Made by a program: the position numbers and the translations under genes. Below the pieces are notes generated by a model. The model made no database searches and was not told where the DNA came from. It saw nothing but the letters and a program-made list of their open reading frames with translations. Positions 20,629 through 49,548 of a stretch of DNA of 49,548 nucleotides are shown here, piece by piece (positions within the stretch are counted from its first letter, which is position 1; the number at the start of each line of letters is the position of its first letter). The stretch lies in contig JASMDC010000026.1 in assembly GCA_030753015.1 (NCBI GenBank), forward strand, positions 1 to 49,548. The letters are read 5' to 3'. Source of the DNA: Candidatus Undinarchaeales archaeon (GTDB lineage Archaea; SpSt-1190; JASMDC01).

Positions 20629-22463
20629 GCTTAGGAGTCGGCCACCGTGGTCAGTTCACGCTCATCGGTCTTGCAGCCATAGCACTCGTCGTGCTGATGA
20701 TCGTTATGTTCACTCTCAAGGGGACCGAGGCCGATCGTGACCGACGCATCACCGAGAGCGAAGCATCGGACATATCGCGGGTCCTTGAGAAAGAGACGCG
20801 GTTCCTCGAGGGTGTTCTTGAGGATGCTGTTGCGTCCGCCGTATTCGAGATGGGGCAGAACAGCGGGTACACCCTCGAGAACAGGCCCGGGCTAAAGCAC
20901 ATGGGCATCCCCTACCTGTTCTACCAGGGCCATGTGGTGAACGTACCTACCGTCACCGTCATGGAGGACATGCTCGCAGAAGAGGTGGAGCGGAGGGTCA
21001 CCAACGCCATCGAGAAGCACAAGGTACAGCTGCGAAAGGAGAAGCGTACCTATTCATTCGGTCATCCCGTCGTAGGGGGCATCATCGAGGAGACGGGATG
21101 TCGTCTCGACCTTAGTGTACCCATCGTTGTGGAGGCCGAGGACGGAACGATGCATGCATCGTCCACAATCGAGTTCACCCACGTGAGCCCTCTGCGCATC
21201 GGCTATTTACGGAAGCTGGCCGAGCAGTACGTACAGAACTACAACCAGCTCCGCTTCATGGAGATGGGCGTTCTTGCCGGGATCCGGGAGGACGCCCGTA
21301 TCTGGGAACCCCCAGGAAGGCTCATGCACTCAGTATCATGTAAGAATCCCCCATTCAAGGGGAAGGAGGAGATGGTGACGCCCTTCAGGGAGAACAGTCA
21401 GCTGTCGGTGGCACGTGAGCTCAAGCGCATCCGAAATCTCTTCCGTGAGGACCGCTACGTCGAGTGGAACCTCGACTTCAGGCCCACCGATACCGATTTC
21501 TCCTTCGTGGCCGATAACGATAAGTACGGGTACGAGACCGAGCGCATCTATCTAGTCCCCCAGATGCTCGCCCCCTTCTCCCCACGCTCGGACGTATGCA
21601 TCTCTCACTATGAGGTGACCTACGAGCTGAGCTGGCCGGTACAAGTATCCCTTATCGACCTCCTTCCCACGGCAAAAGTAGTAGGGGGTTCGGGATCCGC
21701 CCTCATCAAACCGCTCGAGTTCCAGTTCTATCTGGAGCCGTACCTCGGGACGAACGAGGACGGATCAGTGAACACGCGTGCCGTGAACGAGTCGGTCGAC
21801 GCACCTTCAACGGTCGATAGCAAATGCGCGGGTTCATGCAAACTAGATCTGACATTCACCAACTCCAACAACGGACGGGTATGGCTCGATACATGTGCCT
21901 ACACCTACGACGGTAGCAGGCTGTACGAGGAAGAGATCACATGCGGAGTGCACACGCTGGTCGCGGCCGATGCCACAGATCCTACCCTTGGGAAGCTGAT
22001 CAAGAGGGTGAACCTCCAGAACACGCTCAAGGAGACCTACACGATCCCGCCGGCGATAACGGTGGAAGGGACAGTGTACGAGGAACAGCGGACCTACTGT
22101 GAGATGTCTGGTACCCTTACTTCACCGAACAACGTACCGATCGTGGCCCGTGGCGGTGCACCGCCTGCTTACATCGAGGTGCTCCTAGTACCATTGGAGG
22201 TCGGTCTGGGCGAGGTCATGTACGCAGCGGCCGATGATAAGGGACACTACTCGTTCCCCCAGGTGACACCTGGTGAGTACTGGCTCGTCGCCCGCTCCAC
22301 TCCTGATGCTGATGGGCATCCTCTCATCGCAATTGATCCTGAAGGTAGAATAGTCACTATAAGTGCTGACTCTCGTCGAATAGACGTCATCATGAAGCCG
22401 CTACAGATAGCGTTCGTTCATGGTAAGTACGAGAGAGTCTCGGAGGTGAGTGACGCGTGCTGA
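20625..22463 (+). CDS. Membrane-anchored protein with RGQ pilin-like N-terminus and carboxypeptidase-regulatory-like domain
   Basis: The N-terminus reads HRGQFTLIGLAAIALVVLM: a short basic leader and RGQ, then an uninterrupted hydrophobic helix. This resembles archaeal class III (pilin/archaellin-type) signal sequences and the RGQVTIF-type N-termini common in DPANN genomes. The helix is followed by a long helical and beta ectodomain (about 35-470). Near residues 480-570 is a beta-sandwich of the carboxypeptidase-regulatory-like type (VTVEGTVYEE, then DDKGHYSFPQVTPGEYWLVARS in two pieces). It is 612 residues, coupled on both sides (ATGA at 20625; the next gene starts at 22457 inside its 3' end). 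I infer a surface anchor or scaffold for the secreted proteins of the operon. Confidence 0.65.
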   Translation: MSLGVGHRGQFTLIGLAAIALVVLMIVMFTLKGTEADRDRRITESEASDISRVLEKETRFLEGVLEDAVASAVFEMGQNSGYTLENRPGLKHMGIPYLFYQGHVVNVPTVTVMEDMLAEEVERRVTNAIEKHKVQLRKEKRTYSFGHPVVGGIIEETGCRLDLSVPIVVEAEDGTMHASSTIEFTHVSPLRIGYLRKLAEQYVQNYNQLRFMEMGVLAGIREDARIWEPPGRLMHSVSCKNPPFKGKEEMVTPFRENSQLSVARELKRIRNLFREDRYVEWNLDFRPTDTDFSFVADNDKYGYETERIYLVPQMLAPFSPRSDVCISHYEVTYELSWPVQVSLIDLLPTAKVVGGSGSALIKPLEFQFYLEPYLGTNEDGSVNTRAVNESVDAPSTVDSKCAGSCKLDLTFTNSNNGRVWLDTCAYTYDGSRLYEEEITCGVHTLVAADATDPTLGKLIKRVNLQNTLKETYTIPPAITVEGTVYEEQRTYCEMSGTLTSPNNVPIVARGGAPPAYIEVLLVPLEVGLGEVMYAAADDKGHYSFPQVTPGEYWLVARSTPDADGHPLIAIDPEGRIVTISADSRRIDVIMKPLQIAFVHGKYERVSEVSDAC

Positions 22464-25400
22464 AACGGCCACACGGCCAAAAAAAGTATGCATTGGTATT
22501 CTTACTACTGTTCATCATATCGACCTCTGCCCAGGCGGGTCTCATACCAATCTCCGATAAGTACGCGGGTGGCGCAAAGAACATGTGCAAGACCTGCATC
22601 CAGTGCGTGGACACCGAGGGGGAGGAGCAAAAGAGCTGTCTGATGGGATGCCTGAAAGCAGGTGTCGACCTGCTGCTCGGACCCCTGTGCAACAAGATGT
22701 GCAAGGACAGCAAGATATGCAACGGTCTGTGCGGCAACTGTATCCCATGCGCGTTCGAGAAAGGGGATGCGGCCGAGAAGTGCCTTGTGAAGTGCGTTGG
22801 TGAAGCTCTCATAATCGGACCTATCTGTGGTAATGTGTGCAATCAGACCGTAAGCCAGGACTGGATGAACGGTGCAGAGAAGTGCGAGGGTGCATGTACA
22901 GAGTGCGCCTCGTGCGTGTTCGAGGAGGGTGGTGAAGCCCAGGAGAAGTGCGCGCTCAACTGTGTCGTGAAGAACATCCTTCTCAATCCGCTCTGTGGAA
23001 AGGCCTGCTCGAAGGCCGGTGGTGATCCCAAGGATTGGGAGATTAAGGAAAGTGACTCTGCAGATGAAAAAGCGAAGAAGAAGGAGGCTGCAAAGGAAGG
23101 CGCCAAGGATGTTGGCGCATGCGAGAAGATCTGCTCGACAGCCATCGAATGCGCTCCCTGTGCCTTTAAGACGACAGGCCGTGATAAGGCAATGTGCGGG
23201 GTCTCGTGCGTTGTCGGTAACTTCCTCTGTGAGAAATCATGCAGGAAGATATGCGACGATCCGAAGCAATATCCGACAGAGGCGGAGAAAGCAGAGGAGA
23301 AGAAGGACGACAAAGACGGTAAGAAGAAGCCGAAGATGAAGGATTGTACAAGTAATTGCCTTGACATCTGTGGTACCTGCTCACAATGTGCGAACCAGAA
23401 GACCGAGGCAGGCTTGAAAGAATGCATGATAAGGGAGTGCTTGGGCAAGAAGCTGATCAGCGCCCTGTGCAGCAACCTCTTTGTGGGCCCCATGGTGCAG
23501 AAGTGCCTCGAGTGCGGGACGTGCGCGATGGAGCCCGAGGAGAACCGAGCGGCATGCCTTAAGGACTGTGTCGGGAGGCAGCCATTGGCCTTCGACATCT
23601 GCGAGACCGTGAGCTGTGATCCCATCTGCTCGGGCCAGCGTACTGAGGAATGCCGTCAGAAGTGCGGAGGGAGCAGCACATGCATAGACGTGTGCATCCA
23701 GGACTGCAAGGTCGAGTGCCTGGACCTTTGTCACGCATGTGGTAAGTGTGGTTTCGAGAGCACGAAAGAGGCAATGCACGAGTGCACCATCCGCTACTGT
23801 ATACGCCCCTTCATGATGACACCCATCTGCGAGGACTATTGCTCTGAAGTAGTAAAGGGACTGCGGCCGGAGAACTGCAAGGCAATATGCATGACATGCG
23901 AGGATGCTATCTTCTCCGTAGATTGTGTGACCAGAAAGAGTCAGGTGCGGCCCCTTCTTGTGCAATGCATGTTCCGGGACGTGTGCGATGAGCGATGCGA
24001 CGAACATTTCGAGTCGGTACAGGAGGCGGACGAGTGCAAGGGTAACTGCGATAAATGCAAGCACTGTGCGAATGAGGATGACTATAATGTCCAGAAACAG
24101 TGCATGGAGGACTGCTTCGGTTCCCTGTCAGTGAAAGCCGAGTGTTCGGGCCTCTGCGTTGAGTGGGGAGTGACCGCGGGCGACGCGACCCTCAGGTGCC
24201 GTAGCCTGTGTGCGGCCTGCGTGCGGTGCGATGGGGAGACGGACCCGGCAAAGAAGAAGATCTGCCTCCGCAACTGCACGATGACCCAGATGGAGGATTA
24301 CTTCGGTGAGCGGTGCGACAGCGTGTGCCAGGACCAGGACGATAAGCCCACCTGTCGTGACAAGTGCATGAAATGCGATAGCTGCCCGTTCGAAGGCGAT
24401 GGACAGAACATCACGACATGCATCTTGAACAAGTGCGTCGACTCCATCTCGGTAGCACGGCCCATCTGTGAGGACGTATGCGCCAACGAGCAGAACAAAG
24501 CAGGCTGCATTCAGGGATGCGTCAAATGCCCGTCTTGCGTAGATCTCGATACACGGCGGAAACGTCTTGACTGTTTCACCGAATGCGTTGCACCGGACAT
24601 CCTCGGTAGTCAATGCGACTCGCTCTGTGTGGACAGACCCAATGCCACCGGATGCAAGCAACGGTGTCGAAATTGTCACCTGTGCATGGACAAGACCGGC
24701 CAATCACGTGGGGAGTGTCTTGAACGATGTGCAGACCGGGGACAACTTCGTTCTTCATGTGAAGGCCATTGCGAGACTGCCAAGGATCTGATCTATTGCC
24801 AGAGCGCATGTATGACCTGCCCCCAGTGCGATAAGCTCGAGGGCACGGAGCTTGATTCGTGCATACAGGAATGCACCGGCATAATCACACGGCAGATGCT
24901 CTTTGACACGTGCGATGACCTCTGTGCCTCATATAATGACCCGGAGCGCTGTAAGGCGGCATGCGATGAATGCACCGACTGCGACATGGGAGCCGGGCAG
25001 TACGAGTGCCTGCAGGACTGTGTGGATAAGACTGATTCGGGGCTGGACTTCTCCGATAAAGAGAAGGAACGTCGTGAGAAGCTGAAGAAAGGGCTGCTGT
25101 CCGGAGTCTGTGACCTCATGTTCGGCAATATCTGGGACATGTTCTCGTGTGACCTAGTATGTGCAATGGGGGGTCCTTGTCCCATCCCTGACCAAAGGTA
25201 TCTTCTCAAATGCCCCGAGACCGCACAAGAGAACCTCTACCTCTACTATTCAGACCTCATCACCTATTTCGAGAACGTTGCAGAGTTCTATGCGAATATG
25301 GAGGCGGCTCTGGATGCAATACTCTTGGGCACAGTGGGAATGTGCGGGATGTGCAATTACCAGCTGGCCATGATATCGGGTGCTTACAGCACGTGTAGCG

Positions 25401-28400
25401 GCGTCTGGAATCCGACGCCCTTCGGCGCAGCGACCATCCCATGGAACGAGTGGATGTGCGACATCGCCGGCGTAACCAACTGCCAGTCGCAGGTATGTCT
25501 CCCAGGGGGGAAGGTATCCACCTGTCCGCAACTGTGCTCCTACGGAGTGTGCCACTACAACACGTTAACGGGCACAATCGCCCCCGGAACGCCATTCTGC
25601 TGCGCACCATGCACAGCTGGTTGCTGCATGTCATCATGGATTTCAGTCCCATCGGTTACCAGTCATGTCAATCCTCCTGGAATGAAGGCATGCCACTCCT
25701 TCCTTCATGAGGCTGACGATTCGTGCACCATGGACGGACTCTGGTGGCGCAAGGTCGTCGATGCCCCTGCTCTGCGAAATCCCTGCTACGTTACTATCAA
25801 GATAACCGAGCTACGTAACTATGTCCACACCCTACGCGCAGAGATCATCCCCGACATAATCATGCAGATACGAGCGCTGCGTGCCAACGCCCGTAGGTGC
25901 ACGGTCCGAGTCACTTGCTCATCGAACATCAAGATCTACCTGGACCTGCTCGAGGAGATCTGGGACCGGGCCAACCACGTGGACGGCTGGGATACCAAGA
26001 AGTTCGAGGACGAGACCAACAAGTTCACTCTCGCCATGAAGGACTACATGGCAGATATCGGTTCCGGTGGCGGGGGCTTCTCGTTCAGCGGGGACGCCAA
26101 AGCGTGGACTAACTTCAAGAACGGGATCAGTGTGACCGCGTCCGCATACATGGACATAACCTCTGGCGGCAGCTTTGAGAAGTACATCGTATGGGTGCCA
26201 GACTACAGCCCTGCCTTGTGTCTTGTCCCAACGGGGGCAGCCACTAGCGCGGGCACAACTGCTGCCTCGAGCGTGATAGACAAGGTGAAGAAGAAGGCTA
26301 AAGATGGTGCCACTGATGCCGTGAAGAGCACTTTCGGTGTAAAGCAGATGCAGGCCATCTCCGAGTACCATACTAAGCTACTGACCATGTCAATGACCTC
26401 TGTGTTCGCCGGCGAATCAGGTGCACCAGGTGTTACATGTAACTTAGGCTTTCCTGCTCAATGCTTCCCCTCGTTCCCCATCGCATGGCACCTGGTAGAA
26501 GGGCAGAACCTCGGAGAGGATCTCGTGTTCAACTTCCCCGTGCTCCCGAAGTGCGGTGTCGAGGCCTTCGGCAAGGCGATGCCCGGTGACGCCTTCTGGC
26601 ATTCCCAAGAATGTTTTCTATATCGGTCATCCTCGTCCGATCTTGGTTCGATGGGTGAGGAAGAGGAGGAACCATGGGAGGAGGAGGAGGAAGAAGAGGA
26701 AGAAGAATGGGAAGAGGAAGAGGAAGTATGGGGCGAGGAAGAAGAAGAGATCGATGAGGAGGAGGAGATCGATTGCTACGGACTTGCCGATCTTACTCCA
26801 TGCTACAATGACCGGGGTATCTGCTGTAATGAGGTCTGCGTCCCAGGGGCGGACGAGTGCATAACAACGGAAGAGGAGTGCATCGCAAAAATCGATGGGG
26901 AGACCTGCTGGGATGGCGATGCCCTCTGCTGCTTCGAGACATGCATCCCGAACGCTACAACATGTGGTACCGGTTCGGCCGAATGTTACGGCCTACGCGA
27001 TAGGACCCCGTGCTCGGCCGGGCTCTGCTGCAACCAGCAATGTATCGCCGATGCGCTCGCTTGTAGTGGTACAACACCCGACTGCCTTGGAAAAATAGAC
27101 CAAATGTCGTGCGCCGATGGAGAGGGCATCTGCTGCCGAGAGGCGTGCATACCGGGAGCTGACTCCTGTGCTGTCGTTCTGGGGTGCGAGGAAGGCCTTG
27201 ATGGTGTCGCCTGTGCTGGAGGTACTTGTTGCGATACCTATTGTGTACAGGGTGCAACGTCATGTGGGGCCTATTTAGACGAATGTGTTGATGCGGAGGA
27301 CCTCACGCTGTGCACAGGAAATGGTCTGTGCTGCAGAGAAAGGTGCATCCCGAGTGCCACGTCTTGCGGAGGATCCGTTCATCCGCCCGTTCCGGATGAG
27401 ATAGCTGCAACCTGCGGAAAAGCATGCGAAGAGGATTATGCGAGCCCGTACTACTGTCATCCGACTGAAGGGATGTGTGCATGCAGGACGGAGACCGGGC
27501 CACGGTTCATAGAGGAGATCCTCTGCACACCGCGGGTTTCACGACGTATGGTCAGGAACCTTATGCGGTGCTGTGAGCGACATGAACTCGATGAGATGGA
27601 TATCTGCTACTCGACACAGAGCGAAACGGGCTTCTGTTGCCAGGGTGCGTTCTATGAGGTGCCCATCGACCTTTCCTGTATCGATGATGCACCCGTGATG
27701 GAGATCGCCTCCATTGCCTGGGAAGCCGATGGACGTGAAGTGCTCTCTAGGGTCGCTGGTGAACCGGTCAACCTGACCGTCGTGCTCAGGAACACTGGAA
27801 AAACGCTAGAGAACGGCGACCTGTCTTTCCGTATCGACGCAAGTGATGAAAGACTTGTGGAAGAGGACCGGCATGGCATCACTGTGGTAGGGGACAGCGT
27901 AGAGCGCTTCATACATCCCGTTATACCCGAACGTAGGCTTGCCGGTACGGCCCTCGATGGACGAGCCCTTCTTGGCTACCTCAATCTTCAGGTGAGTTCC
28001 AACTACACACGATTATACCTATTAGATGACGATACCATCGATGTGACCGAAGGTCACATCGAAAAGGAGGGCTTACGGAGCGATTATGTCCTTGCAGGTG
28101 ACACGGTTACCGGAGTAGCCTCTGTAGTGTCCACCCGTGACGAGCCCGTAGTGGTCATATTATCTGTTTCCCTGATGGCCGATGGTACGGAGATCGCGGG
28201 TACGCGGAGGAGCGAACTCATCACACTCGAAGCTGGTGCTACAGTCACTATAGGATCCATGCAACATGTCATTGGTGCGATAGATGTAGCAAAGGAGCTC
28301 GGTATCCTCGTGGAGGTCATCGGTCAGGCAGGAGAGGTTATTCAGTACAAGCGCCTCGACGAGGATGTCTACAATGATGCGGTTCGAACGGTGCTCTCAC

Positions 28401-28957
28401 CGTTCCTAAACATCAAGAAGGTCGCCTGGACGGACGCTGACGGGAGCCTGCTGGAGCGTGTGTTCGAGGGGAGACTTGTACAACCGGAAGTGACTGTCGT
28501 CAATCCGCTCGCGATGAGGTTCCGCGGGACAGTGGAGGTCATCGTGAAGGACGAATCAGATGTGAAGCTCGTTACCGGACGTATGACGCTCACGCTGGAA
28601 AAGGGACATTCGGCCGTCATCAAGTTACCGTCGTTCACGACCGATGTCGCCGAGATAATCGCGCTCGGTGAAGGAGAGACGACGGTGCAGAAGGCCAACA
28701 AGCGGTACCATGTCTACGTCAATGCAACTGATGACGAGCTCTCCTGGCTGGATCTGGAGGACACGGTCTTCGTGCTCGACTCACTTGTCCTCTCGGATAT
28801 GGATAAGGTCGATGTATCGGCCACGAGCGAGTTCCAGGACTGTAAACTTAGGGTGACGTGCACGAACTGCAACGTCGGTTGCGAGATCAAGGTACGGGAA
28901 TGCCGGCCGGTGTTCAACCTGTGCCGCTGTTATCAGTGCTCTTACTCGAACGATTGA
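22457..28957 (+). CDS. Giant secreted Cys-rich repeat protein (copy 1)
   Basis: 2166 residues, GTG start. Order: signal peptide (mature end GLIPIS); about fifteen Cys-rich repeats of about 50 residues (35-880) of the form CxxCxxCxF-x(10)-CLxxCV-x(9)-PLCxxxC; a globular, Cys-poorer domain (about 885-1398) with PWNEWMCD and GLWWRKVVDAP; a Glu/Trp acidic tract (1401-1439); six knottin-like modules (1440-1640) of pattern C-x8-C-x(3-6)-CC-x3-C-x6-C; beta-sandwich domains; and a final 8-Cys motif. Two Lys/Glu-rich linkers (about 194-220 and 271-296) interrupt the first repeats and are absent from copy 2. No enzyme motif and no membrane anchor are seen. It is probably an extracellular structural or binding protein stabilised by many disulfides; no known family recognised. 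Confidence 0.72.
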   Translation: MLKRPHGQKKYALVFLLLFIISTSAQAGLIPISDKYAGGAKNMCKTCIQCVDTEGEEQKSCLMGCLKAGVDLLLGPLCNKMCKDSKICNGLCGNCIPCAFEKGDAAEKCLVKCVGEALIIGPICGNVCNQTVSQDWMNGAEKCEGACTECASCVFEEGGEAQEKCALNCVVKNILLNPLCGKACSKAGGDPKDWEIKESDSADEKAKKKEAAKEGAKDVGACEKICSTAIECAPCAFKTTGRDKAMCGVSCVVGNFLCEKSCRKICDDPKQYPTEAEKAEEKKDDKDGKKKPKMKDCTSNCLDICGTCSQCANQKTEAGLKECMIRECLGKKLISALCSNLFVGPMVQKCLECGTCAMEPEENRAACLKDCVGRQPLAFDICETVSCDPICSGQRTEECRQKCGGSSTCIDVCIQDCKVECLDLCHACGKCGFESTKEAMHECTIRYCIRPFMMTPICEDYCSEVVKGLRPENCKAICMTCEDAIFSVDCVTRKSQVRPLLVQCMFRDVCDERCDEHFESVQEADECKGNCDKCKHCANEDDYNVQKQCMEDCFGSLSVKAECSGLCVEWGVTAGDATLRCRSLCAACVRCDGETDPAKKKICLRNCTMTQMEDYFGERCDSVCQDQDDKPTCRDKCMKCDSCPFEGDGQNITTCILNKCVDSISVARPICEDVCANEQNKAGCIQGCVKCPSCVDLDTRRKRLDCFTECVAPDILGSQCDSLCVDRPNATGCKQRCRNCHLCMDKTGQSRGECLERCADRGQLRSSCEGHCETAKDLIYCQSACMTCPQCDKLEGTELDSCIQECTGIITRQMLFDTCDDLCASYNDPERCKAACDECTDCDMGAGQYECLQDCVDKTDSGLDFSDKEKERREKLKKGLLSGVCDLMFGNIWDMFSCDLVCAMGGPCPIPDQRYLLKCPETAQENLYLYYSDLITYFENVAEFYANMEAALDAILLGTVGMCGMCNYQLAMISGAYSTCSGVWNPTPFGAATIPWNEWMCDIAGVTNCQSQVCLPGGKVSTCPQLCSYGVCHYNTLTGTIAPGTPFCCAPCTAGCCMSSWISVPSVTSHVNPPGMKACHSFLHEADDSCTMDGLWWRKVVDAPALRNPCYVTIKITELRNYVHTLRAEIIPDIIMQIRALRANARRCTVRVTCSSNIKIYLDLLEEIWDRANHVDGWDTKKFEDETNKFTLAMKDYMADIGSGGGGFSFSGDAKAWTNFKNGISVTASAYMDITSGGSFEKYIVWVPDYSPALCLVPTGAATSAGTTAASSVIDKVKKKAKDGATDAVKSTFGVKQMQAISEYHTKLLTMSMTSVFAGESGAPGVTCNLGFPAQCFPSFPIAWHLVEGQNLGEDLVFNFPVLPKCGVEAFGKAMPGDAFWHSQECFLYRSSSSDLGSMGEEEEEPWEEEEEEEEEEWEEEEEVWGEEEEEIDEEEEIDCYGLADLTPCYNDRGICCNEVCVPGADECITTEEECIAKIDGETCWDGDALCCFETCIPNATTCGTGSAECYGLRDRTPCSAGLCCNQQCIADALACSGTTPDCLGKIDQMSCADGEGICCREACIPGADSCAVVLGCEEGLDGVACAGGTCCDTYCVQGATSCGAYLDECVDAEDLTLCTGNGLCCRERCIPSATSCGGSVHPPVPDEIAATCGKACEEDYASPYYCHPTEGMCACRTETGPRFIEEILCTPRVSRRMVRNLMRCCERHELDEMDICYSTQSETGFCCQGAFYEVPIDLSCIDDAPVMEIASIAWEADGREVLSRVAGEPVNLTVVLRNTGKTLENGDLSFRIDASDERLVEEDRHGITVVGDSVERFIHPVIPERRLAGTALDGRALLGYLNLQVSSNYTRLYLLDDDTIDVTEGHIEKEGLRSDYVLAGDTVTGVASVVSTRDEPVVVILSVSLMADGTEIAGTRRSELITLEAGATVTIGSMQHVIGAIDVAKELGILVEVIGQAGEVIQYKRLDEDVYNDAVRTVLSPFLNIKKVAWTDADGSLLERVFEGRLVQPEVTVVNPLAMRFRGTVEVIVKDESDVKLVTGRMTLTLEKGHSAVIKLPSFTTDVAEIIALGEGETTVQKANKRYHVYVNATDDELSWLDLEDTVFVLDSLVLSDMDKVDVSATSEFQDCKLRVTCTNCNVGCEIKVRECRPVFNLCRCYQCSYSND

Positions 28958-28966
28958 GGTCAGGCC

Positions 28967-31900
28967 ATGGTACATCGACCTGTCGTCGGTGTGGTCGTTG
29001 TCATGCTCATTCTAACGGCGGCGACCGCGGGCCTCATCCCAATGTCACAGAAGGCATCAGCGAGCGCAAAGAACCTGTGCAAGACGTGCATCGACTGCGT
29101 CGGTACCGAAGGGGAGGAGCAGAACGCCTGTCTCATGAACTGCCTGCAGGAAGGTGTCATGACGTTCCTTGGCCCCCTGTGCCAGAAGATATGCAAGGAC
29201 AGCCAGATGTGCTCGAACCTGTGCGGCAAGTGCGTACCCTGCGCTTTCGAGAAGGGCGAGGGTGCGGAGAAATGCCTCATCAAATGCGTTGGCGAATCGG
29301 TCATTCTCGGACCGCTCTGCGGTGAGCTTTGCTCGTCAGTGACCGCGCAGTCATGGATGAAGGACGCTGATAAGTGCACAGGTAAGTGCACGGAGTGTGC
29401 CTCTTGCGTTTTCGAGGACAGCGCGGACGCTCGCAAGGAGTGCGCCCTGACCTGTGTTGTGGAGGACCTGATCCTGGGCCCTCTGTGCGAGAAGGCCTGC
29501 TCAAAAGCAAAGGATGCGGCCGGGTGCACGGAAACCTGCCTGAAGGTCGCGGACTGTGCGGAATGCGCGTTCAAGGACACTGACAAGGAAAAGGAGCTGT
29601 GCGCTCTCGCATGCGTCGGGGTCAACTTCGTGTTCGATGTCGTGTGCGAGAAGGCCTGCAACAAGACCGACAATCCCGGTAACTGCACAGCGACCTGCAT
29701 GAAGATCGCCAAGGACTGTGCCCCCTGCGCAATGAAGCCCACCCCGGACACTCGCGAGGAGTGCCTGATCAGGACGTGCGTCGGATTCGAGATCATCGGC
29801 CCCCTGTGCGAGAACCTCTTCGTCGGCGACATGATTGAAAAGTGCAAGGAATGCGGAGCGTGCGCAAGGGAACCGGAGGAGAACCGCGATGCCTGCGTAA
29901 AGGAATGCGTTGGCAGGCAGCCGGAGGCTTTCGACGTGTGCGAACAGGTCAGCTGCGATCCCATATGCGGTGGCCAGCGTACTGCCGCGTGCAGGGAGCA
30001 ATGCGGTAGCGATACTGCCTGTATCGAGAGTTGCAAGCAATCGTGCATGGACGAATGCAAGCAGCTATGCGGTAGCTGTGGACAGTGCGGGTACGAGAAG
30101 AGCCGTGAGGCAATGCATGAGTGCACCATCAAGTATTGCGTCCAGCCGTTCATGATGACACCCATATGTGAGGATTTCTGTAGCAACTCGATTATGGGTC
30201 TCCAGCCACAGGAATGCGTGGCCATATGCAACTCGTGCGAGGAATGTACAATGTCCGTGGACTGCGTCACAGGTACCGCTCAGGTCGAGCCATGCCTAAA
30301 GGAATGCATGTTCGAGGATGCATGTTCAAGTAACTGCGACCGTATGTACAGCTCGTCAAAGAACGTCGATGACTGCAAGAAGAACTGCCAGAGCTGTAAG
30401 CACTGCGCCAATGAGGACAATGTCACGATGCAGCCTTGCCTCATGGAGTGCTTTGATTCACTCGACGTGAAGGAAGAATGCTCGGGTCTCTGCCAGCTGT
30501 GGGGTGTCGCGAGCGGTGATAGTATGACACGATGCCGCTCATTGTGCTCGTCGTGTATCAAATGCGATGGCTTACCCGGAGAGGCAAAGATAGGGTGCCT
30601 ACGCAACTGCACGATGGGACAGATGGAGGACTACTTCGGCGACCAATGTGACAGTATATGCAGGGACCAGAACGACACTGCGTCGTGTCGCCAGAAATGC
30701 ATGCATTGCGACAGCTGCGTGTTCGAGGGAGATGGTCAGAACATGACCTCCTGTATCCTCGATAAATGCATCCCTCCATTGGACGTGGCTAAACCCATAT
30801 GTGATGAGATATGCTCCAACGAGCCCGACGTCGATGCATGTGTCGCGTCCTGTCTGGCGAAACCGGAGTGCGTACACCTCGACACGCGACGCAAGCGTCA
30901 GGACTGTTACACTGAACACGTCGCGCCCGCTCAGCTGGGGCCCTCGTGCGACCAGCTCTGCGAGGAGCTACCGGAACCCGACAAGTGCAAACGTCGGTGC
31001 CGGAGCTGTAATCTCTGCATGAACGACCGGGGCACTAATCGTGATGGATGCCTGGAGCGATGCGCCGACCGGGGGCGAAGAGGTGACTCGTGCGAGGACC
31101 ATTGCGCTTCGGCAAAGAATCCTCGGACATGCAGGAGCGCCTGCATGACATGTCCGATGTGCGACCGGCTCGAAGGGGAGGCACTACAGTCGTGCATCGC
31201 TGAGTGCACGGGAGAGGTCACGGCCCAGATGACGTTCGACATGTGCGACGATCTTTGTTCGACATACAACGATTTCGACCGTTGCATGGCAGCATGTGGT
31301 GACTGCGATCAATGTTCGATGGGGCCCGATCAGTACGGGTGTCTGGAAGAGTGCGTTGATGCCACCGATCCCGGCCTCGACTTCTCTGCCAAGGAGAAGG
31401 AGAAGAAGGAGAAGGCAAAGAAGGCTCTCCTCTCGGGCATGTGCGACCTCGCGTTCGGCAACTTCTGGGATGCGTTCTCCTGCGATCTGGTATGCTCCAT
31501 GGGAGGCGTGTGCCCCATCGTGGATGAGCGGTACCTTCTCAAGTGTCCGCCAATGGCGCAGGAGAACCTCTACCTCTACTACAGCGACCTCATCACCTAC
31601 TTCGAGAACGTGGCCCTGTTCTACGAGAACATGGAGAAGGCCCTGGACGGTATCATGTTGGGAACGGTGGGCCTGTGCGCCATGTGCAATTACGAGCTAA
31701 TTAATCTCCAAGCCACCTACGGCACCTGTTCGGGTATCTGGAATCCCACACCGTGGGGTGCGGCGACAATCCCCTGGAACGAGTGGATGTGCGACGTCTC
31801 CGGCATGATCAGTTGCCAACCACGTATCTGTTCGACGGTACCAGGTGTCAACCGGTGCCCGCAGCTCTGCTCCACGGCCACGTGTCACCACACGATAGCG

Positions 31901-34900
31901 CCGTACATATGCTGTTGTGGATGGCCGGGCTGCTGCCCCAGCTATTTTGCGACACCATCCACGACGCTCCATGTAAATCCTACGGCTATGAAGACCTGTC
32001 ATCGGTTCGTCCATGAGACCGATGACGCGTGTACCATGGAGGGCCTGTGGTGGCGAGGGGTCGTGGAGGCACCCGCTCTGCGCAATCCGTGCCATGTTGT
32101 GACCAAGATAGCTGAGCTCAAGAACTACGTCCACAAGTTCCGGACCGAGATCCTCCCCGACATCATCGTACAGTTGCGTGCCATGCGTGCCAACGCCCGC
32201 CGCTGCACCGTACGCGTCTCCTGCTCGTCCAACATCAAGATCTATCTCGATCTCCTCGAGGAGATATGGGACCGGGCCAACCACATAGATGGCTGGGATA
32301 CAGAGAAGTTCGAGTTCGAGACCAACAAGTTCACCCTTGCCATGCAGGACTTTAACGAAGACATCAACTCAGGCGGTTCAGGATTCGGCTTCGACTTCTC
32401 AGGCGGCGCCGGTTGGACCAACTTCAAGACCGGTCTCAGTGTGGGTGCTTCGGCCTACTTTGATAATATGCAGGGGAAGAATCCCGAGAAGTACCTTGTA
32501 TGGGTACCGGACTACAATCCCCCATATTGTGTCCCCGGTGCCACTGGCGTTGCGACGACCGCAGCCACGACTGTAGCGGTGGACAAGGTCGTCGATAAGC
32601 TGAAGAAGACCTTAAAAGAAAAGATGATGGAGGCAGTGAAGGAGACCTTCGGTGTCAGACAGATCGCGACGCTCGTTGCTTACCATACAGAGCTCATCGC
32701 AATTTCCCTGACCAACTCGTTCGCCGGTGTGGCAGGCGTCCCAGGGCCGTGGTGCACCGGAGGTTTTCCCATGACGTGCATAGACGCCTTCCCAATACGC
32801 TGGCACCTGGTCGAGGGTTCGAACCTCGGGGAGGACCTTGTGTTCAAAATGCCAGTCATCCCCAGCTGCGGAGTGGAGGCCTTCGCGAAGTCGATGCCCG
32901 GTGACGCCTTCTGGCACTACAACGAGTGCCTGCTCTACCAGGGCCATACGCCCGATCCTACGGGCGGAGATGAGGAGGAACTGGAAGAGGAACTCGAGGA
33001 AGAGGAAGAGGTAGAAGAGGAGGAGCTTGAGGAAGAGGAATGGGAAGAGGAGGAAGAAGAGTTCGAGGAAGAGGTCGACTGCTCTGACAAGGAGGACCTG
33101 GAACCTTGTTTCGAGGGTGATGGTCTCTGCTGCAACGGTGAATGCATACCTGGGGCCGAGGCATGTACCACGGAAGGTGAAGAGGAGTGCGCCGGGGCCG
33201 AGGAGGAGGCCGCTTGTGGCGGCGGAAAGGGCATTTGCTGCTTCGGGGCCTGTGTCCCCGGGGCGAGCGGATGTGGTGAGGAAGAGGATGAGTGCGCAGG
33301 TGAGAATGCAGGTGCGCCCTGTGATGGTGGTAAGTGCTGTGAAGGCCGATGCGTACCAGGGGCCACCGGTTGCAGTGGAACAGCGGACTGTATCAAGAGG
33401 CCAGATGGTGCATCCTGTGTAAACGGTACAGGCATGTGTTGCGAACAGAACTGTATCCCGGGTGCTGAAGCATGCGCCGTAGCACCCGAGTGCCAGCCCG
33501 GGTACGATGGGCTACCCTGTGCGGACGGGACATGCTGCGATGGCGTGTGCGTACCGGGAGCATTATCATGTGGCGGGTACTCGCATGAGTGTGTGGAAGG
33601 GGGCGACCTCTCGGTCTGCTCGGGTGACGGTCTCTGTTGTAGGGAACGGTGCCTCCCCGGAGCGACATCCTGTGGTGGAAGACCGGGCGGAGAGCTCCCC
33701 ACCGATATCGCGGAGGTCTGCACGAGAGCCTGCGATGAAGCCAGCGGGGGCGATCATTACTGCCATCCCACCGAACGTATGTGCACCTGTCGTACAACGA
33801 GAGGACCGGTGTACGTCGCAGAGATACCTTGCGCTCCGCGTGTCTCCGAACGTTTGGTAGCAGGACTGCGAAGGTGTTGCGAGAGCAAAGGGATGGAAGA
33901 GGTAGACGAGTGTTACAACGAGGAAAGCGAGACCGGCTTCTGCTGTCAGGGAGCGTTCACGGAAGTGCCCATTGAGATCGAGTGCGTAAAGGACGCACCG
34001 GTCGTGGAGATCGCCTCTCTTGCCTGGATGTACGGGAACAGGCAGGTCCTCTCTATGGTGGCCGGTACGACCGTTAATCTTACCGCCGTCCTCAGGAACA
34101 CCGGCAAGCGTCTCGAGGACGGTGACCTATCGTTCCGTATCGACGCTGAAGGGGAACGACATCTCTCACGCGATGAGCATCACATAGCGATCAGTGGATC
34201 GAGCGTACGTCGTGTGGGCCTTCCGATCGAGCTGGAGCCACGGCTCGCGGGTGGATCGCTCACGGCGCTCGCGATCCTTGGATACCTCAACGTCCAAGTG
34301 TCGTCCGAGCCCATACGCCTCTATGTCCTTGCCGAGGACACCGTGGACGTGGCCGATGGCTACTTCGAGTCGTCGGGTGAGCGTGATTATTACGTACTTG
34401 CCGGTGATGTGGTGGCCGCCGCTGCAGCAGTGACATCCTCGAAGAACGAGTCGATCGAAGCGGTCATCGAGGTGGTCATGACCGCTAATGGTACGGAACT
34501 GGAAGCGACAAGGACCAAAAAGGCCACGACGTTGGAGCGTAGCGCGACCGTTACCGTCAGAACTCCGACCCGGTTCATCGGTGAGGGGAACGTGGGGACA
34601 GAGCTTGGTATGATCGTACGGGTAGAGGGTATCGGGGGAGAGGTCCTCCAGTACAAACGGCTTGAGGTCGATATCTATCCTGATGCAGTGAAGATCGTCA
34701 GCTCGCCATATCTCTTCCTGCGTGATGTCGCCTGGCGGGACGATGGAGGAAGAAGGATGGAACGGACCTATGAGGGCGTCCAGACGAAGGCCGAGGTGAC
34801 GTTGCACAATCCGCTCGCTATATCTTTCGACGGTACGGTGACGGTCGAGGTCGTGGACGGTCAAGGGAATATCGTGGCGACTGGGAGCCGTCACGCGGTC

Positions 34901-35266
34901 ATCGATATGGACGCTTCGGCCATCGTCCAGACAGTACCGTTCACCGCAACCCTCACAGAGGCCTTTGCCGTTGGACCCGATGGTTCGGCAGTCCTCAAGA
35001 AGGAGGACAGCGTGTACCGCGTCAGGGTGACCGCCAGGACCGATGCCATAACCTGGGCGGACATCGACGACCATGTGTTCGTGCTCGAGACGCGTGCCCT
35101 CGGCGAGGGCGGGACCTCGGATGTCATGGCCTCGAGCGAGTTCGAGGGTTGTAGCCTCAGCGTCAGCTGCACCGCGTGCACCGAGGGATGTGAGATCACG
35201 ATCAAGGACTGCGAGCCGGTCCTCAACCTTTGCAAATGTGTGGAGTGCACATTCTCGAGAGGATGA
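28967..35266 (+). CDS. Giant secreted Cys-rich repeat protein (copy 2)
   Basis: 2099 residues, ATG nine nt after copy 1 with a purine-rich GAGGTCAGG just upstream. The architecture is the same as in copy 1, in the same order: signal peptide (mature end GLIPMS), Cys-rich repeats, globular domain (with LLKCPPMAQENLYLYYSD and GLWWRGVVEAP), Glu-rich tract (1334-1371), exactly six C-C-CC-C-C modules (1371-1570), beta domains and the 8-Cys end. The many shared blocks show a tandem duplication. Divergence is spread evenly, so both copies look maintained and functional. The stop TGA (35264-35266) overlaps ATG 35263 of a third, broken copy. Confidence 0.72.
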   Translation: MVHRPVVGVVVVMLILTAATAGLIPMSQKASASAKNLCKTCIDCVGTEGEEQNACLMNCLQEGVMTFLGPLCQKICKDSQMCSNLCGKCVPCAFEKGEGAEKCLIKCVGESVILGPLCGELCSSVTAQSWMKDADKCTGKCTECASCVFEDSADARKECALTCVVEDLILGPLCEKACSKAKDAAGCTETCLKVADCAECAFKDTDKEKELCALACVGVNFVFDVVCEKACNKTDNPGNCTATCMKIAKDCAPCAMKPTPDTREECLIRTCVGFEIIGPLCENLFVGDMIEKCKECGACAREPEENRDACVKECVGRQPEAFDVCEQVSCDPICGGQRTAACREQCGSDTACIESCKQSCMDECKQLCGSCGQCGYEKSREAMHECTIKYCVQPFMMTPICEDFCSNSIMGLQPQECVAICNSCEECTMSVDCVTGTAQVEPCLKECMFEDACSSNCDRMYSSSKNVDDCKKNCQSCKHCANEDNVTMQPCLMECFDSLDVKEECSGLCQLWGVASGDSMTRCRSLCSSCIKCDGLPGEAKIGCLRNCTMGQMEDYFGDQCDSICRDQNDTASCRQKCMHCDSCVFEGDGQNMTSCILDKCIPPLDVAKPICDEICSNEPDVDACVASCLAKPECVHLDTRRKRQDCYTEHVAPAQLGPSCDQLCEELPEPDKCKRRCRSCNLCMNDRGTNRDGCLERCADRGRRGDSCEDHCASAKNPRTCRSACMTCPMCDRLEGEALQSCIAECTGEVTAQMTFDMCDDLCSTYNDFDRCMAACGDCDQCSMGPDQYGCLEECVDATDPGLDFSAKEKEKKEKAKKALLSGMCDLAFGNFWDAFSCDLVCSMGGVCPIVDERYLLKCPPMAQENLYLYYSDLITYFENVALFYENMEKALDGIMLGTVGLCAMCNYELINLQATYGTCSGIWNPTPWGAATIPWNEWMCDVSGMISCQPRICSTVPGVNRCPQLCSTATCHHTIAPYICCCGWPGCCPSYFATPSTTLHVNPTAMKTCHRFVHETDDACTMEGLWWRGVVEAPALRNPCHVVTKIAELKNYVHKFRTEILPDIIVQLRAMRANARRCTVRVSCSSNIKIYLDLLEEIWDRANHIDGWDTEKFEFETNKFTLAMQDFNEDINSGGSGFGFDFSGGAGWTNFKTGLSVGASAYFDNMQGKNPEKYLVWVPDYNPPYCVPGATGVATTAATTVAVDKVVDKLKKTLKEKMMEAVKETFGVRQIATLVAYHTELIAISLTNSFAGVAGVPGPWCTGGFPMTCIDAFPIRWHLVEGSNLGEDLVFKMPVIPSCGVEAFAKSMPGDAFWHYNECLLYQGHTPDPTGGDEEELEEELEEEEEVEEEELEEEEWEEEEEEFEEEVDCSDKEDLEPCFEGDGLCCNGECIPGAEACTTEGEEECAGAEEEAACGGGKGICCFGACVPGASGCGEEEDECAGENAGAPCDGGKCCEGRCVPGATGCSGTADCIKRPDGASCVNGTGMCCEQNCIPGAEACAVAPECQPGYDGLPCADGTCCDGVCVPGALSCGGYSHECVEGGDLSVCSGDGLCCRERCLPGATSCGGRPGGELPTDIAEVCTRACDEASGGDHYCHPTERMCTCRTTRGPVYVAEIPCAPRVSERLVAGLRRCCESKGMEEVDECYNEESETGFCCQGAFTEVPIEIECVKDAPVVEIASLAWMYGNRQVLSMVAGTTVNLTAVLRNTGKRLEDGDLSFRIDAEGERHLSRDEHHIAISGSSVRRVGLPIELEPRLAGGSLTALAILGYLNVQVSSEPIRLYVLAEDTVDVADGYFESSGERDYYVLAGDVVAAAAAVTSSKNESIEAVIEVVMTANGTELEATRTKKATTLERSATVTVRTPTRFIGEGNVGTELGMIVRVEGIGGEVLQYKRLEVDIYPDAVKIVSSPYLFLRDVAWRDDGGRRMERTYEGVQTKAEVTLHNPLAISFDGTVTVEVVDGQGNIVATGSRHAVIDMDASAIVQTVPFTATLTEAFAVGPDGSAVLKKEDSVYRVRVTARTDAITWADIDDHVFVLETRALGEGGTSDVMASSEFEGCSLSVSCTACTEGCEITIKDCEPVLNLCKCVECTFSRG

Positions 35267-35517
35267 TGGTGAGTACTGCTAACGATTCAATTCGTCGCCG
35301 AACGGGAAGGTGGGCGATTATCGGATTGTTATCGCTCATCATCATGATGAACACAGGACTCGCGGGCCTCATACCCTTGAGCGGGCAGTGGTCCGGAGCT
35401 GCCAAGGGCATGTGCAAGAGCTGCATCCAGTGCGCTAACATGGAGGGTGAGGAGCAGAAGGCCTGCCTCATGGAATGCCTGCGTGCGGGCGTCGGTTATC
35501 TCCTTGGTCCTCTCTGC
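35263..35517 (+). pseudogene. Truncated third copy of the giant protein gene
   Basis: Starting at ATG 35263 (ATGA overlap with copy 2), the first 85 codons match copies 1 and 2: signal peptide, mature GLIPLS, MCKSCIQCANMEGEEQKACL and LLGPLC. Right after the cysteine codon at 35515-35517 the similarity stops. The frame continues for 16 foreign codons to TGA at 35563-35565; those codons are antisense to a minus-strand gene. The breakpoint is therefore near 35517/35518. A short secreted peptide might still be made, but the gene is a remnant. Confidence 0.8.
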
Positions 35518-36588
35518 GTCCTCATCGTCCTCGATCACGGGCTCCCGGTCGAAGCATGGTCCTGATGTATACTGTTCACAATGCCCTTTCCAGTCGCCCC
35601 CTCCCGTCAGACCGACACCTTCGGTCCTCTTAGGCCCCTCTCCCCGTCCGATGTCCGTGTACACGCTCGGATCGGCCAAGGTGGCGATGACAGCGCGCAT
35701 TTCGGTCTGGAAGCTGGTGATGTCGTAGTCGTCGGTGGTGAACGACGCACCGATCGTGGACTCGAGCCTCTGAAGGTCCTCTTCGATGCGCTCTGGTGTC
35801 AATCCGCTAGCCGTGGCCTCGCGCACCCGTCCGGCCATGTCGTCCATGGTATCGGCGAGCTCGGGGAGGAGAGGGACCACGGTCCCCGCAAGGTAACCGT
35901 TTAGCTCTTCCACCGTCTGGGCAAGCTCGCATACGTTGGCATTCTTGCCGAAGGTGCATACATCGTTGATCGCATGTACCATCCGGGAGCATTCCAGCAC
36001 TTTCACAGGGGCCGGAAGGCTCTTGTCATGGGAATCGCAATCATGTCCCTTGCGTTCGGGGATGTTTTCGCAGAGGACGCATGAAGAGCTACTACCACTG
36101 CAACTGGCCTGTGCAGCGATTCCGCAGACTTTAGGGTCCACGATACTGGTCGGTGCTAGTTCAAGACCGCTCCCGCAATGAGGATAATCTGCCGAGATGA
36201 ACTCATCCCTTACCTGGTTGCATACATCACACTGTATCCGCAAGGCCTGGGTAAGAAGCCCCAGGTCTTCGCTCAAAGCACCGTAGAATGAATCCGCCCG
36301 CTCGTAGAACGCTTTACCCTCTTCGAGATAGTGCACGATGTTGATGTATGGTCGGGCCGAGCAGTCCATGAGCGCAGCGTTAAGGGGAACAGCAGTTTCA
36401 TTGATGATCACTCCCCCTCTGACGGAGAAGGGCATCTGACAAGCGCTACCGGTCATGTAATCGATGGGCATTGGCGAGGGTGTCGGGGTGGCCGGGCCCT
36501 CTTCACTGCACGTGAGCGATGTGATAACGAGAATACTGAGCAACAGGACCAGAGCATGATGCCTTGTCACGCCTAATCTCAAGTCCAT
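35329..36588 (-). CDS. Secreted protein related to the giants' central domain, C-terminus replaced at a rearrangement
   Basis: A signal peptide starts at ATG 36588 (MDLRLGVTRHHALVLLL, possibly lipoprotein-like, ending SLTC); ATG 36624 is the alternative. Residues after the signal align without gaps to the central domain of the giants over about 65 positions (shared Cys, Asn, Tyr, Glu, Phe-Tyr and the CxxC pair: MCGMCN there, QCDVCN here). A second block matches too (C-x3-VH-x3-D-x-C, EL-x2-Y, PxL). It is thus a stand-alone version of that domain. The native sequence stops near EDDED at about 35518; the last 63 codons are antisense to the broken giant copy. A TATA-like element on the minus strand lies at about 36654-36665. 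Confidence 0.62.
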   Translation of the reverse strand: MDLRLGVTRHHALVLLLSILVITSLTCSEEGPATPTPSPMPIDYMTGSACQMPFSVRGGVIINETAVPLNAALMDCSARPYINIVHYLEEGKAFYERADSFYGALSEDLGLLTQALRIQCDVCNQVRDEFISADYPHCGSGLELAPTSIVDPKVCGIAAQASCSGSSSSCVLCENIPERKGHDCDSHDKSLPAPVKVLECSRMVHAINDVCTFGKNANVCELAQTVEELNGYLAGTVVPLLPELADTMDDMAGRVREATASGLTPERIEEDLQRLESTIGASFTTDDYDITSFQTEMRAVIATLADPSVYTDIGRGEGPKRTEGVGLTGGGDWKGHCEQYTSGPCFDREPVIEDDEDAERTKEITDARTQAFHEAGLLLLTLHVSALDAALAHALGSSGPLPAQGYEARESCVHHDDER

Positions 36589-36653
36589 GTCATCATCACC
36601 GTTCCACGGATTACCAGGATACATCTATCCCTTCCTGATGTTGATACTGCCCA

Positions 36654-36834: not shown

Positions 36835-38496
36835 ATGACCTTCATCCGGGAGAAGCGGTTCGGCGACCGCGTCTACAAGTACAAGGTAGAGAGCTATCGT
36901 GACGAACAGGGCCGTCCCCGACAACGGGTCCTCGAGTACCTGGGACGGGAGGCCGAGGGAGCGGATGGAGAACATGAGGCCCGACCAAAACGGTCCCGCG
37001 GAACAATGGTCGAGGAGATCCTGCCCTTCGGCGACCTGGCCCTCCTGCATGACACGGCCATGCAGATCGACCTCGTCGAGACCATCGACCGGCTCGCCCC
37101 CCGGCAGAGCACGACGTCGGTCGGGAAGGCGCTGCTGCTCCTGGCCATCAACCACCACACGGGCAGGGTGGCTCTCGAGGACGTGGGCGAGTGGTACGAG
37201 CGCAGCATGCTCAGGTACTGGCTCGGCGACCCGCCCGAGAACTTCACCGAGGAACGCCTCCTGGGTGTGCTGGACACGGTGTGCAAGCAGGATGAGGATC
37301 TCCTGCGGGACAAGACGTGGATCATCAGCCAGGCCCTGCGAGAGAGAGTGGAGGTGAAGTGGAGCCCCGAGAGCCGCTACCTCTACTATGATCGGACTCA
37401 GACCCTGTACTTCGGCGAGGAGTGCTTCTACGGTGAGTTCGGGTACGATACGGAGGGCCAGCGGAAGCGCAGGAAGGTCGGCATGGCCATCGTCATCCGG
37501 AGGGGGGACAGGTTCCCCGTCCTCTACCGTGTGTTCCGCGGGGACCGCCCCGATGTCACCACCTTCACGTCCGTGGTGGACCGCCTCGATGGCGCTGGGC
37601 TCAAGGACCTCGTCCTCGTGGTCGACAGGGGCATGAAGAGCGAGGAGAACATACGGTTCGTCGCCGACACGCCGTTCTCGGTGGTGACGGGGGTGCGTGC
37701 CAACGAAAGGATTGTCGACGAGCTTCTCCAGGGTCTCAGGGACGAGGATGTCGAGAGACCGGGGAACCGCCTCCACCGGGGCGAGCGGATATTCTGCGTG
37801 GTGGAGAGGACCGTGGACACCTCGGAGGGGGAGCGGAAGTACGTCATCTACCAGGACCCGAGGAGGCGGGGAGAGGAGAAGGCCTCCCTGCTGGAGCGGA
37901 TCTCGACGGCGGAGGAGCGGCTGGGCGAGCTCGAACAGGAGATGGCGACCTCCGATGAGCGGGGCAGGGGACGCAGGCCGAACTGGGAGCGCAGGATGAA
38001 GGACATACTCAACGGGGTCGGCCGCTACTTCAAGGCGGAGATCACGGACGGAAGGCTCGAGTGGAGCCTTCTGGAGGATGTCGTCGAGGACATGCTCCCC
38101 AGGGTCGGTAGGTCGATCCTGGTGTCCACGGACGTGAACATCCCGGCGAAGGAGGTCGTCGACGTCTACCTCGACAAGGACGAGGTGGAGAAGGTGTGGC
38201 GTCTCGGAAAGGGGTCACTCGGTCTGAAGGGCATCAACCACTACAAGCGGGACAGGGTCGTTAGTTATCTCTTCGTCTGCTATCTCGCACATCTCCTGTG
38301 GGCCATCCTGCGGTACCGGCTGAGGAAGAAGAGGGTCCACACGAGCGTGGAACGGTGCCTCCGCGCCCTTCATCGCGTGGAATTCGTCCGTCTTCGGTCC
38401 GGAAAGAAGGAGTTCCTGCAGACGCCGCCCCCCGTCGGGCTCGAGAAGAAGCTGTGCGAGGCGTTCGATCTGGAGCGCTTCAAGAAGGTCACGTAG
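36835..38496 (+). CDS. IS1634-family (IS4 group) DDE transposase
   Basis: The 553-residue protein begins with the family-typical small beta domain (FIREKRFGDRVYKYKVESYR, then QRVLEYLGR). The RNase-H-like catalytic core shows D186 (LYYDRTQTLYFG), D264 (LVVDRGMKSEENI) and a glutamate in the VYLDKDEVEKVW helix (E450 or, more likely, E452). The length fits the family. A GTTTTTAAG promoter and the palindrome at 36815-36834 precede the ATG. The frame is intact, so the element is probably still active. Confidence 0.85.
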   Translation: MTFIREKRFGDRVYKYKVESYRDEQGRPRQRVLEYLGREAEGADGEHEARPKRSRGTMVEEILPFGDLALLHDTAMQIDLVETIDRLAPRQSTTSVGKALLLLAINHHTGRVALEDVGEWYERSMLRYWLGDPPENFTEERLLGVLDTVCKQDEDLLRDKTWIISQALRERVEVKWSPESRYLYYDRTQTLYFGEECFYGEFGYDTEGQRKRRKVGMAIVIRRGDRFPVLYRVFRGDRPDVTTFTSVVDRLDGAGLKDLVLVVDRGMKSEENIRFVADTPFSVVTGVRANERIVDELLQGLRDEDVERPGNRLHRGERIFCVVERTVDTSEGERKYVIYQDPRRRGEEKASLLERISTAEERLGELEQEMATSDERGRGRRPNWERRMKDILNGVGRYFKAEITDGRLEWSLLEDVVEDMLPRVGRSILVSTDVNIPAKEVVDVYLDKDEVEKVWRLGKGSLGLKGINHYKRDRVVSYLFVCYLAHLLWAILRYRLRKKRVHTSVERCLRALHRVEFVRLRSGKKEFLQTPPPVGLEKKLCEAFDLERFKKVT

Positions 38497-49400: not shown

Positions 49401-49548
49401 TGCGCAGTCCTTATCGAGGGAGCAAGTGCCACCGGTCGTTGCAAGACAAATGCCGGAATCATCGGTGATGAACTCCTTGACACACGAGTGTCCCGTACCG
49501 CACTCACAGGTCTCCCTACACAGGTCACCGGACACGACCGAATCCTTT
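46440..49548 (-). CDS. Large Cys-rich surface protein with C-terminal anchor (5' end outside the window)
   Basis: The frame is still open at the window edge (codons upstream of GTG 49535 read KDSV), so the N-terminus is missing. The visible part of about 1035 residues consists of many short Cys-rich units (DxxCATxC, CEGTLHIGYAC, GCxxC). Two thrombospondin-3-like calcium loops follow (DIDHDSIPDQIDPDP at 47724-47792 and DIDGDGVPDGDEECP at 47429-47506), then CGDGICxxxE knots. After these come a Cys-free beta-sandwich, a membrane helix (IPGLAIIGLVIFIVLVIGI) and a tail with SYYGYRY. The end architecture mirrors the protein at 10261-12213. It is probably an adhesin-like cell-surface protein. PfkA follows on the same strand with its own promoter. 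Confidence 0.7.
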   Translation of the reverse strand, partial: KDSVVSGDLCRETCECGTGHSCVKEFITDDSGICLATTGGTCSLDKDCATSCCAAATCVPRETVDLDSTCSNDCQCSLTMECTGGKCLKKTGVACDSGEQCGSGVCKGSTCKDRGEQTLAQPCRIDNDCITGLECTGGTCLGVLGTNATGHAECASGCASKGVCTVKSSVGLDGSCSDDCSCEQGLKCNNRKGTCLRDLSGFCLNPETCASDCCVEKACVIAGVIPDSGSCLLDCQCASGICAAGTCRAARPCITRADCDMPFCADGLCKEACGPEGAPCDTLDSTGYCCDGKCISLGDRLGGIPPYASCGSESCIDTVRCVGGSWRCGPGNTTCCAESGLGSCSTTGVCIDMFPCPGSCDGNTAQLKDCRDGACVDSGTRDCSTEMLFCRAGSCGPCLNDGDCSRFNKCEGTLHIGYACIGGSCERRDRECSDSYLVCEKEGCMACTSTEACAAQYGEGKQCEPVSGACRVLKCTNNDNCPNLCEDNVFVPFVCDDFLCKKGEDYTCKDGTICTTSGCAGCDSDVVCILDYGLGHTCIEERCVQTCIDGVCRKDAGENCLWCPDCRCSEGSVCDPWSDHADEGGCVPDIDHDSIPDQIDPDPQRKGFPCLNDNECPAACRGALALKFSCLSERCVVSNVKVCQEQGQVCERGLCVPCTAHSECTSIYGPLYTCSQGTCRRDIDGDGVPDGDEECPREPDLRDGCPTVKRCNTLIEDCRTGPGCACDGPLHVCDPHRTDADSTGCVGVRCGDSICDRPTENEGNCCQDCGCLDGKVCDAYEELCKAGCGDGICASHECSFCSRDCAPIFCANGVCDTVIGESCAGSEDCTCSVSIDVMGTYDVMDTPDIDVPVQVANIGNVPDSYIVRINTVNARLGFTEVPIPTIKPNGKHAFLLPLTFLSSAGTADIDIVVTSETFPELATAGGHVTITFGSSNQLFRAIQESFLWDIITGKNIPGLAIIGLVIFIVLVIGIRVVFRELTPRTVATVSPATSGTTAPSPYTARPATASYYGYRYMTGEARGSEGSQGLDGQSE

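Follow-up and report, generated by a model that had tools for sequence, protein, structure and literature searches.

A family of giant cysteine-rich secreted proteins with a common chassis and variable cargo in a Candidatus Undinarchaeales genome

What might an archaeon do with two adjacent genes that each encode a secreted protein of more than 2,000 amino acids (aa) and that match no characterised family? The question is raised by contig JASMDC010000026.1 of the archaeal metagenome-assembled genome (MAG) GCA_030753015.1, assigned to Candidatus Undinarchaeales, which we analysed over its 49,548 nucleotides (henceforth the window; C36 in our contig numbering). Two genes lie there in tandem on the + strand, P0001 (22457–28957, 2166 aa) and its paralogue P0002 (28967–35266, 2099 aa). 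Both are open reading frames (ORFs) free of internal stops, 9 bp apart, and their products are 57% identical; neither has a significant match in Pfam. We found that the pair belongs to a large family of giants, in which a common chassis is combined with varied cargo domains, among them enzymes that cut murein. In our reading, to which we give a probability of about one half, the window pair are non-enzymatic members of this modular secreted family, most likely binding and, together with their sisters, attacking bacterial cells.

A genome-wide family of giants

A search of its own genome with P0001 retrieved a 2,399-aa homologue from contig C51 and, from C20, a distant one, and a search with the C20 protein exposed many further giants. 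Using hidden Markov models (HMMs) built from the giants found by way of P0001 and then of the C20 giant, we identified 22 giants (1066–2845 aa) with a C-terminal immunoglobulin (Ig)-like region, 20 of which reach a cysteine-rich tail. A helical core (GLa) was found in 19 giants and in P0010, a stand-alone 431-aa core-domain protein of the window (35329–36624, – strand; GLa and GLb matches, P0008 search E = 1.5e-5). The GLa match is weaker but significant in P0001 (E = 2e-13), P0002 (1e-11) and the C51 giant (8e-8). The initial annotation, made from the sequence of the window alone, had regarded the architecture of the pair as unique, a view that does not survive this comparison, as about 20 other giants of the genome have the same core and Ig region and, with few exceptions, the Cys tail. 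The nearest to the window pair in the tree, read here for its topology and not its support values, is the C51 giant, followed by the C20 giant. Together with the two partner genes P5 and P3 (see below), the giants occupy about 231 kb, or 6% of the assembly.

The cargo varies from giant to giant. M23 peptidase domains were found by Pfam in four proteins (the C20, C21 and C41 giants and one from C53) and NlpC/P60 domains in another set of four (C20, C46 and two from C53), while the transglycosylase-type SLT domain gave a Pfam match in the C21 giant, to which regions of the C20 and C41 giants are homologous. Reading of the motifs indicated that the M23 ligands are intact in C20, C41 and C53, the first motif being doubtful in C21; the catalytic cysteine of NlpC/P60 is intact in three of the four proteins and is a glycine in one from C53, and the SLT glutamate is found in all three. 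At least six giants of this genome bear murein-cutting domains. Other cargo recognised by Pfam includes three C-type lectin domains in the C29 giant, FG-GAP in C117, TSP3 in C22 and Kazal in C39. In many giants Pfam recognised no enzyme domain, and among the Pfam matches of the window pair and its sisters there was no known cell-wall-binding domain. Archaea are not known to have murein, and bacteria would therefore be the natural target of the murein-cutting cargo.

Architecture of the window pair

The two genes had been annotated as sharing one order of parts, namely a signal peptide, about fifteen Cys repeats, a globular domain, a Glu tract, six C-C-CC-C-C modules, beta domains and an 8-Cys end, an arrangement for which no characterised family was known. 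Each of these parts was recovered in both proteins, and the lack of a known counterpart for the whole also held in our searches.

Both proteins begin with a hydrophobic, signal-peptide-like N-terminus (22457–22537 in P0001; sequence reading). The arrays that follow consist of 15 repeats in P0001 (residues 44–859, 22586–25033), 14 of them at E≤0.01, and of 14 in P0002 (29078–31363), with the unit C-x2-C-x2-C...C-x3-C...C-x2/3-C (repeat HMM). Thirteen copies in P0001 scored at least 20 bits, compared to none in 200 full shuffles and none in 200 shuffles that kept the cysteine positions. The repeats matched no solved structure in the PDB by sequence, and are predicted to be helical from a model of the homologous segment of P0002. 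Within the genome, repeats of this type are restricted to four proteins: P0001, P0002, the C51 giant and the neighbour of the latter. This neighbour (L015:1710–6746 on C51) is a 1678-aa membrane-anchored Cys-rich protein with three such repeats and CC-like modules. A different and long array, of near-identical CCGG-type Cys repeats, is found in a 2032-aa protein without Pfam matches that lies beside the hydrolase-bearing giant of C20 (L016:7591–13689).

The globular domain corresponds to the region matching the genome-wide helical core. In P0001 this region (GLa/GLb, residues about 897–1400) covers 25145–26656, with HMM matches at residues 916–1012 (E = 2e-13) and 1068–1207 (E = 1e-8); in P0002 it covers 31478–32968, both halves matching at E = 1e-11. 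The core and the adjoining repeats are predicted to be helical, the core model being of low confidence (P0002, mean predicted local distance difference test, pLDDT, 53). A Glu-rich tract comes next (26657–26773 in P0001 by sequence reading; 32969–33079 in P0002 by comparison), and then the modules with the pattern C-x8-C-x4-6-CC-x3-C-x6-C, of which a regular expression found exactly six in P0001 (26774–27367) and six in P0002 (33080–33673). They have no Pfam match. We take their C-C-CC-C-C spacing to fit the inhibitor cystine knot (knottin) framework; this framework feature is present in both proteins, the disulfides themselves being predicted.

The C-terminal part of P0001 was modelled with AlphaFold from a 19-sequence alignment as three Ig-like beta-sandwiches (27698–28756) and a small Cys-rich beta tail (28802–28954), with a mean pLDDT of 83. 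All eight cysteines of the tail are kept in P0002, and their pattern is conserved across 19 paralogues; the equivalent region of P0002 (33899–35263) was delimited by the paralogue alignment. The model matches the beta-sandwiches of transglutaminase, Wzt, glycosidase and RbmA proteins (Z about 10–13), mostly over one or two domains, and in Foldseek the long alignments came with low TM-scores. We attach no functional meaning to these matches, the beta-sandwich being a common fold. Profile matches to the PDB were non-significant for the core, the C-terminus and P5 alike (best E 0.3, 0.1 and 0.03), and we set aside the vinculin matches of the core (E 0.3) as reflecting generic helix bundles.

In an alignment of 2,092 codons, the pair differs by 0.36 nonsynonymous substitutions per site (dN) and by about 3.7 synonymous ones (dS), the latter a rough figure given that it is near saturation. 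Of the 210 alignment columns having a cysteine in either protein, 201 have it in both; identity over the remaining columns is 53%. Judged from the alignment, both copies are maintained under purifying selection, as the initial annotation had supposed, and what the pair conserves best is the predicted disulfide plan.

The P5-P3 cassette

The giants of the window are the last of five + strand genes, overlapping or at most 9 bp apart, that form an apparent operon (13408–35266). Directly upstream of them is P3 (20625–22463), a 612-aa protein with a pilin-like (class III-like) N-terminus, preceded by P5 (17779–20628), a 949-aa secreted protein; the first gene (13408–17775) encodes a 1455-aa Cys-rich protein with three Kazal-type domains (Kazal_1 E = 3.5e-18). 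P5 and P3 are each present in about 20 copies in the genome. For the 18 adjacent P5-P3 pairs compared, the trees of the two proteins are strongly correlated (r = 0.915, a value reached by none of 9,999 permutations). Over the seven loci having a giant, the tree of the giant C-terminus correlates with that of P5 (r = 0.81, 21 of 5,040 permutations as high) and of P3 (r = 0.67, 26 of 5,040). Such correlations would be expected if the whole cassette was duplicated together, and are compatible with a putative complex of giant, P5 and P3. One giant contains a P3-like domain, and beside several P5-P3 pairs the stretches read contain no giant. A match of the C-terminal part of P3 to NOMO2 (E = 5e-4) was read as another instance of the common beta-sandwich.

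Relatives in other archaea

Homologues in the same gene order in related archaea had been named as what would support the initial annotation. We found none in nine genomes of the same class nor in 393 archaea; solely P3 and its adjacency to a large secreted gene recur. Nor was either P5 or the giants' C-terminal module found intact in any of the 393 other archaeal genomes, where P5 was matched over its short Ig-like part only and the giants' C-terminus weakly. The genome_contigs, plasmids and viral_contigs collections yielded no relatives, and a virus or plasmid origin found no support. These matches outside the own genome represent part of what may exist elsewhere.

P3 is more widespread, an enlarged profile matching 36 of 394 archaeal genomes (own genome included). 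Among 28 distant P3 genes (at least 400 aa), 22 lie within 300 bp of an ORF on the same strand that is at least 900 aa long, versus 7 of 33 size-matched control ORFs from the same loci (Fisher p = 8e-6, to be taken as indicative because the loci were picked by the strength of their P3 matches, one genome contributed several of them and the controls were drawn from these loci too). The large ORFs adjoining P3 mostly bear signal peptides and, where Pfam matches anything, mostly fn3 or Ig-type domains. One of them (L103:1034–8560, contig C20 of genome G370) is a 2508-aa archaeal giant directly downstream of a P3 homologue, with SLT (E = 1e-9) and Amidase_3 (E = 2e-41) domains. Homology of the window giants to the P3-linked giants was not detected, profile comparison giving no match, the core of the L103-type giant included. 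A second type of P3 homologue (about 690–790 aa) adjoins a conserved secreted protein of 1015–1110 aa at six loci (L104, L141, L144, L146, L147 and L155); profile comparison detected no homology of this protein to P5.

Putative function and alternatives

The signal peptides suggest that the giants would be exported by the Sec pathway. They could then fold into a multi-disulfide rod, with the helical Cys repeats outermost, then the six modules of knottin type and, at the base, the Ig-like region with its Cys tail. Gene order, matching copy numbers and correlated trees point to a base that may dock on a membrane-held P3-P5 complex from the same operon, and the variable outer part would be presented to other cells. 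In the sisters this outer part is made of murein-cutting enzymes or lectins, and in the window pair of the Cys-repeat array. As the pair is without enzymes, its task is most likely that of binding or of a stalk.

Several observations weigh against an attack on bacteria by such complexes. Pfam recognises neither a catalytic nor a cell-wall-binding domain in P0001 or P0002; in the stretches read, no P3-P5 pair lies beside the giants of C51, C20, C25, C27, C34, C46 and C53; no homology was detected between the window giants and the P3-linked giants of other archaea; and the tree correlations can in part arise from neighbouring genes having been duplicated together, without contact between their products.

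Going one step further, we tentatively propose that P3, P5 and an interchangeable giant form an archaeal counterpart of the bacterial polymorphic weapon systems, amplified about twenty-fold to some 6% of the genome, which might take hold of bacterial walls and break through them, the window pair serving for binding or as a stalk. Like the bacterial polymorphic toxin systems (PMC3482391), the giants combine a constant region with interchangeable cargo and are amplified in one genome. In the bacterial systems, however, the toxin is C-terminal, whereas here the C-terminus is constant and the cargo N-terminal or inserted. No immunity genes were obvious among the neighbours of the giants, for which no systematic search was made.

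Further comparisons come from archaea, although the window proteins lack the defining features of the three systems concerned. From Woesearchaeota and Pacearchaeota, extracellular proteins were described that are up to 3,000 aa long and have a murein-like transglycosylase domain (fam00969; Castelle and colleagues, PMC8204110). They resemble the present giants in being very large, secreted and archaeal, and SLT-type transglycosylase domains occur here in the C20, C21 and C41 sisters; P0001 and P0002, however, have no SLT match in Pfam, and neither a Cys-rich chassis nor a P5 partner nor 20-fold amplification figures among the features of fam00969 described in the parts of that study drawn upon here. 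The L103 giant, with its SLT and amidase domains and its place next to a distant P3 gene, is probably of this kind. The existence of archaeal peptidoglycan hydrolases able to kill bacteria is established (PMC12352652). Modular ones such as Woldo are, like the sister giants, secreted and equipped with M23 or other murein-cutting domains, but the window pair has no such domain in Pfam, and chassis and cassette differ. That survey required a known wall-binding domain, of which Pfam finds none here, and most of its positive archaeal genomes had one such protein, compared to the at least six hydrolase-bearing giants of this genome. The SPEARE proteins of Nanohaloarchaeota (PMC10266531) are likewise giant archaeal surface proteins with Ig-like parts and a proposed role in host contact, but they can be as long as about 9,000 aa and include a VirB4/TraG-like ATPase domain, for which Pfam gave no match in P0001 or P0002.

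Attachment to a partner and a role in the envelope are serious rivals to this offensive role. In the first, which we regard as possible if doubtful, the pair would be adhesins anchoring the archaeon to a microbial partner, whose wall the hydrolase-bearing sisters thin locally. The C-type lectins, FG-GAP and Ig-like domains of the sisters fit such a role, as do the fn3 and Ig-type domains of most P3-linked giants elsewhere and the genomes of the class relatives, of a size usual for symbionts (0.6–1.1 Mb); the own genome, at 3.85 Mb, is not reduced. Binding to a partner differs from attack mainly in the partner's fate, which is beyond the reach of sequence. That the giants instead build a disulfide-crosslinked envelope, an S-layer-like layer or a matrix, with sister hydrolases that are incidental or serve on scavenged debris, seems unlikely to us. 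Very high Cys content, Ig-like bases and the many members without enzymes would be expected of it, and P5 and the C-terminus weakly resemble the S-layer protein Sap at non-significant values (E = 0.03 and 0.1), but the cargo is varied, with several distinct murein hydrolases whose active sites are intact, and a single lattice protein would not be expected to occur as about 20 diverged copies. Very improbable is a redundant or decaying, duplication-driven expansion with little function for the pair, as might be read from the truncated third copy and neighbouring transposase gene described below and from the NlpC/P60 domain lacking its catalytic Cys, since each gene is an uninterrupted frame of more than 2,000 codons, with dN far below dS and almost perfect retention of Cys.

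Archaeal weapons and contact organelles directed against bacteria are barely known. If the giants do bind and attack bacterial cells, about 6% of a genome's DNA would be given over to a modular system built on disulfides, with parts that lend themselves to being expressed and tested singly, and the adjacency of P3 to large secreted genes would help to locate such systems across many uncultured archaea.

Source assembly and neighbouring genes

The assembly comprises 3.85 Mb in 117 contigs (98.9% complete, 5.0% contaminated), as compared to 0.6–1.1 Mb for the nine class relatives, and the giant family with P5 and the C-terminal chassis is known from this single MAG of about 5% contamination. A search of the assembly for an archaeal 16S gene gave no match. 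That the family stems from bacterial contamination is disfavoured by the giant-bearing contig C51, which carries Orc1/Cdc6 and both subunits of DNA polymerase D; an archaeal-type LonB on the P5-P3 contig C26 and a TrmB-type regulator on C41 also speak against it. The origin of C53, a short contig with RsgA, is less sure. Since the GC of the fetched stretches varies between contigs (0.56 to 0.65), related strains are possibly mixed in the assembly.

P0002 is followed in the window by a truncated third copy (35230–35565, + strand) with a signal peptide and the first Cys repeat, which overlaps the antisense P0010 gene. Both lie beside a DDE transposase gene (36835–38496), a neighbour that suggests a past rearrangement at the operon end. 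Other secreted proteins rich in Cys, with membrane segments at their C-termini, are encoded at 46440–49535 (– strand) and 10261–12213 (+ strand) of the window, and are related to one on C46.

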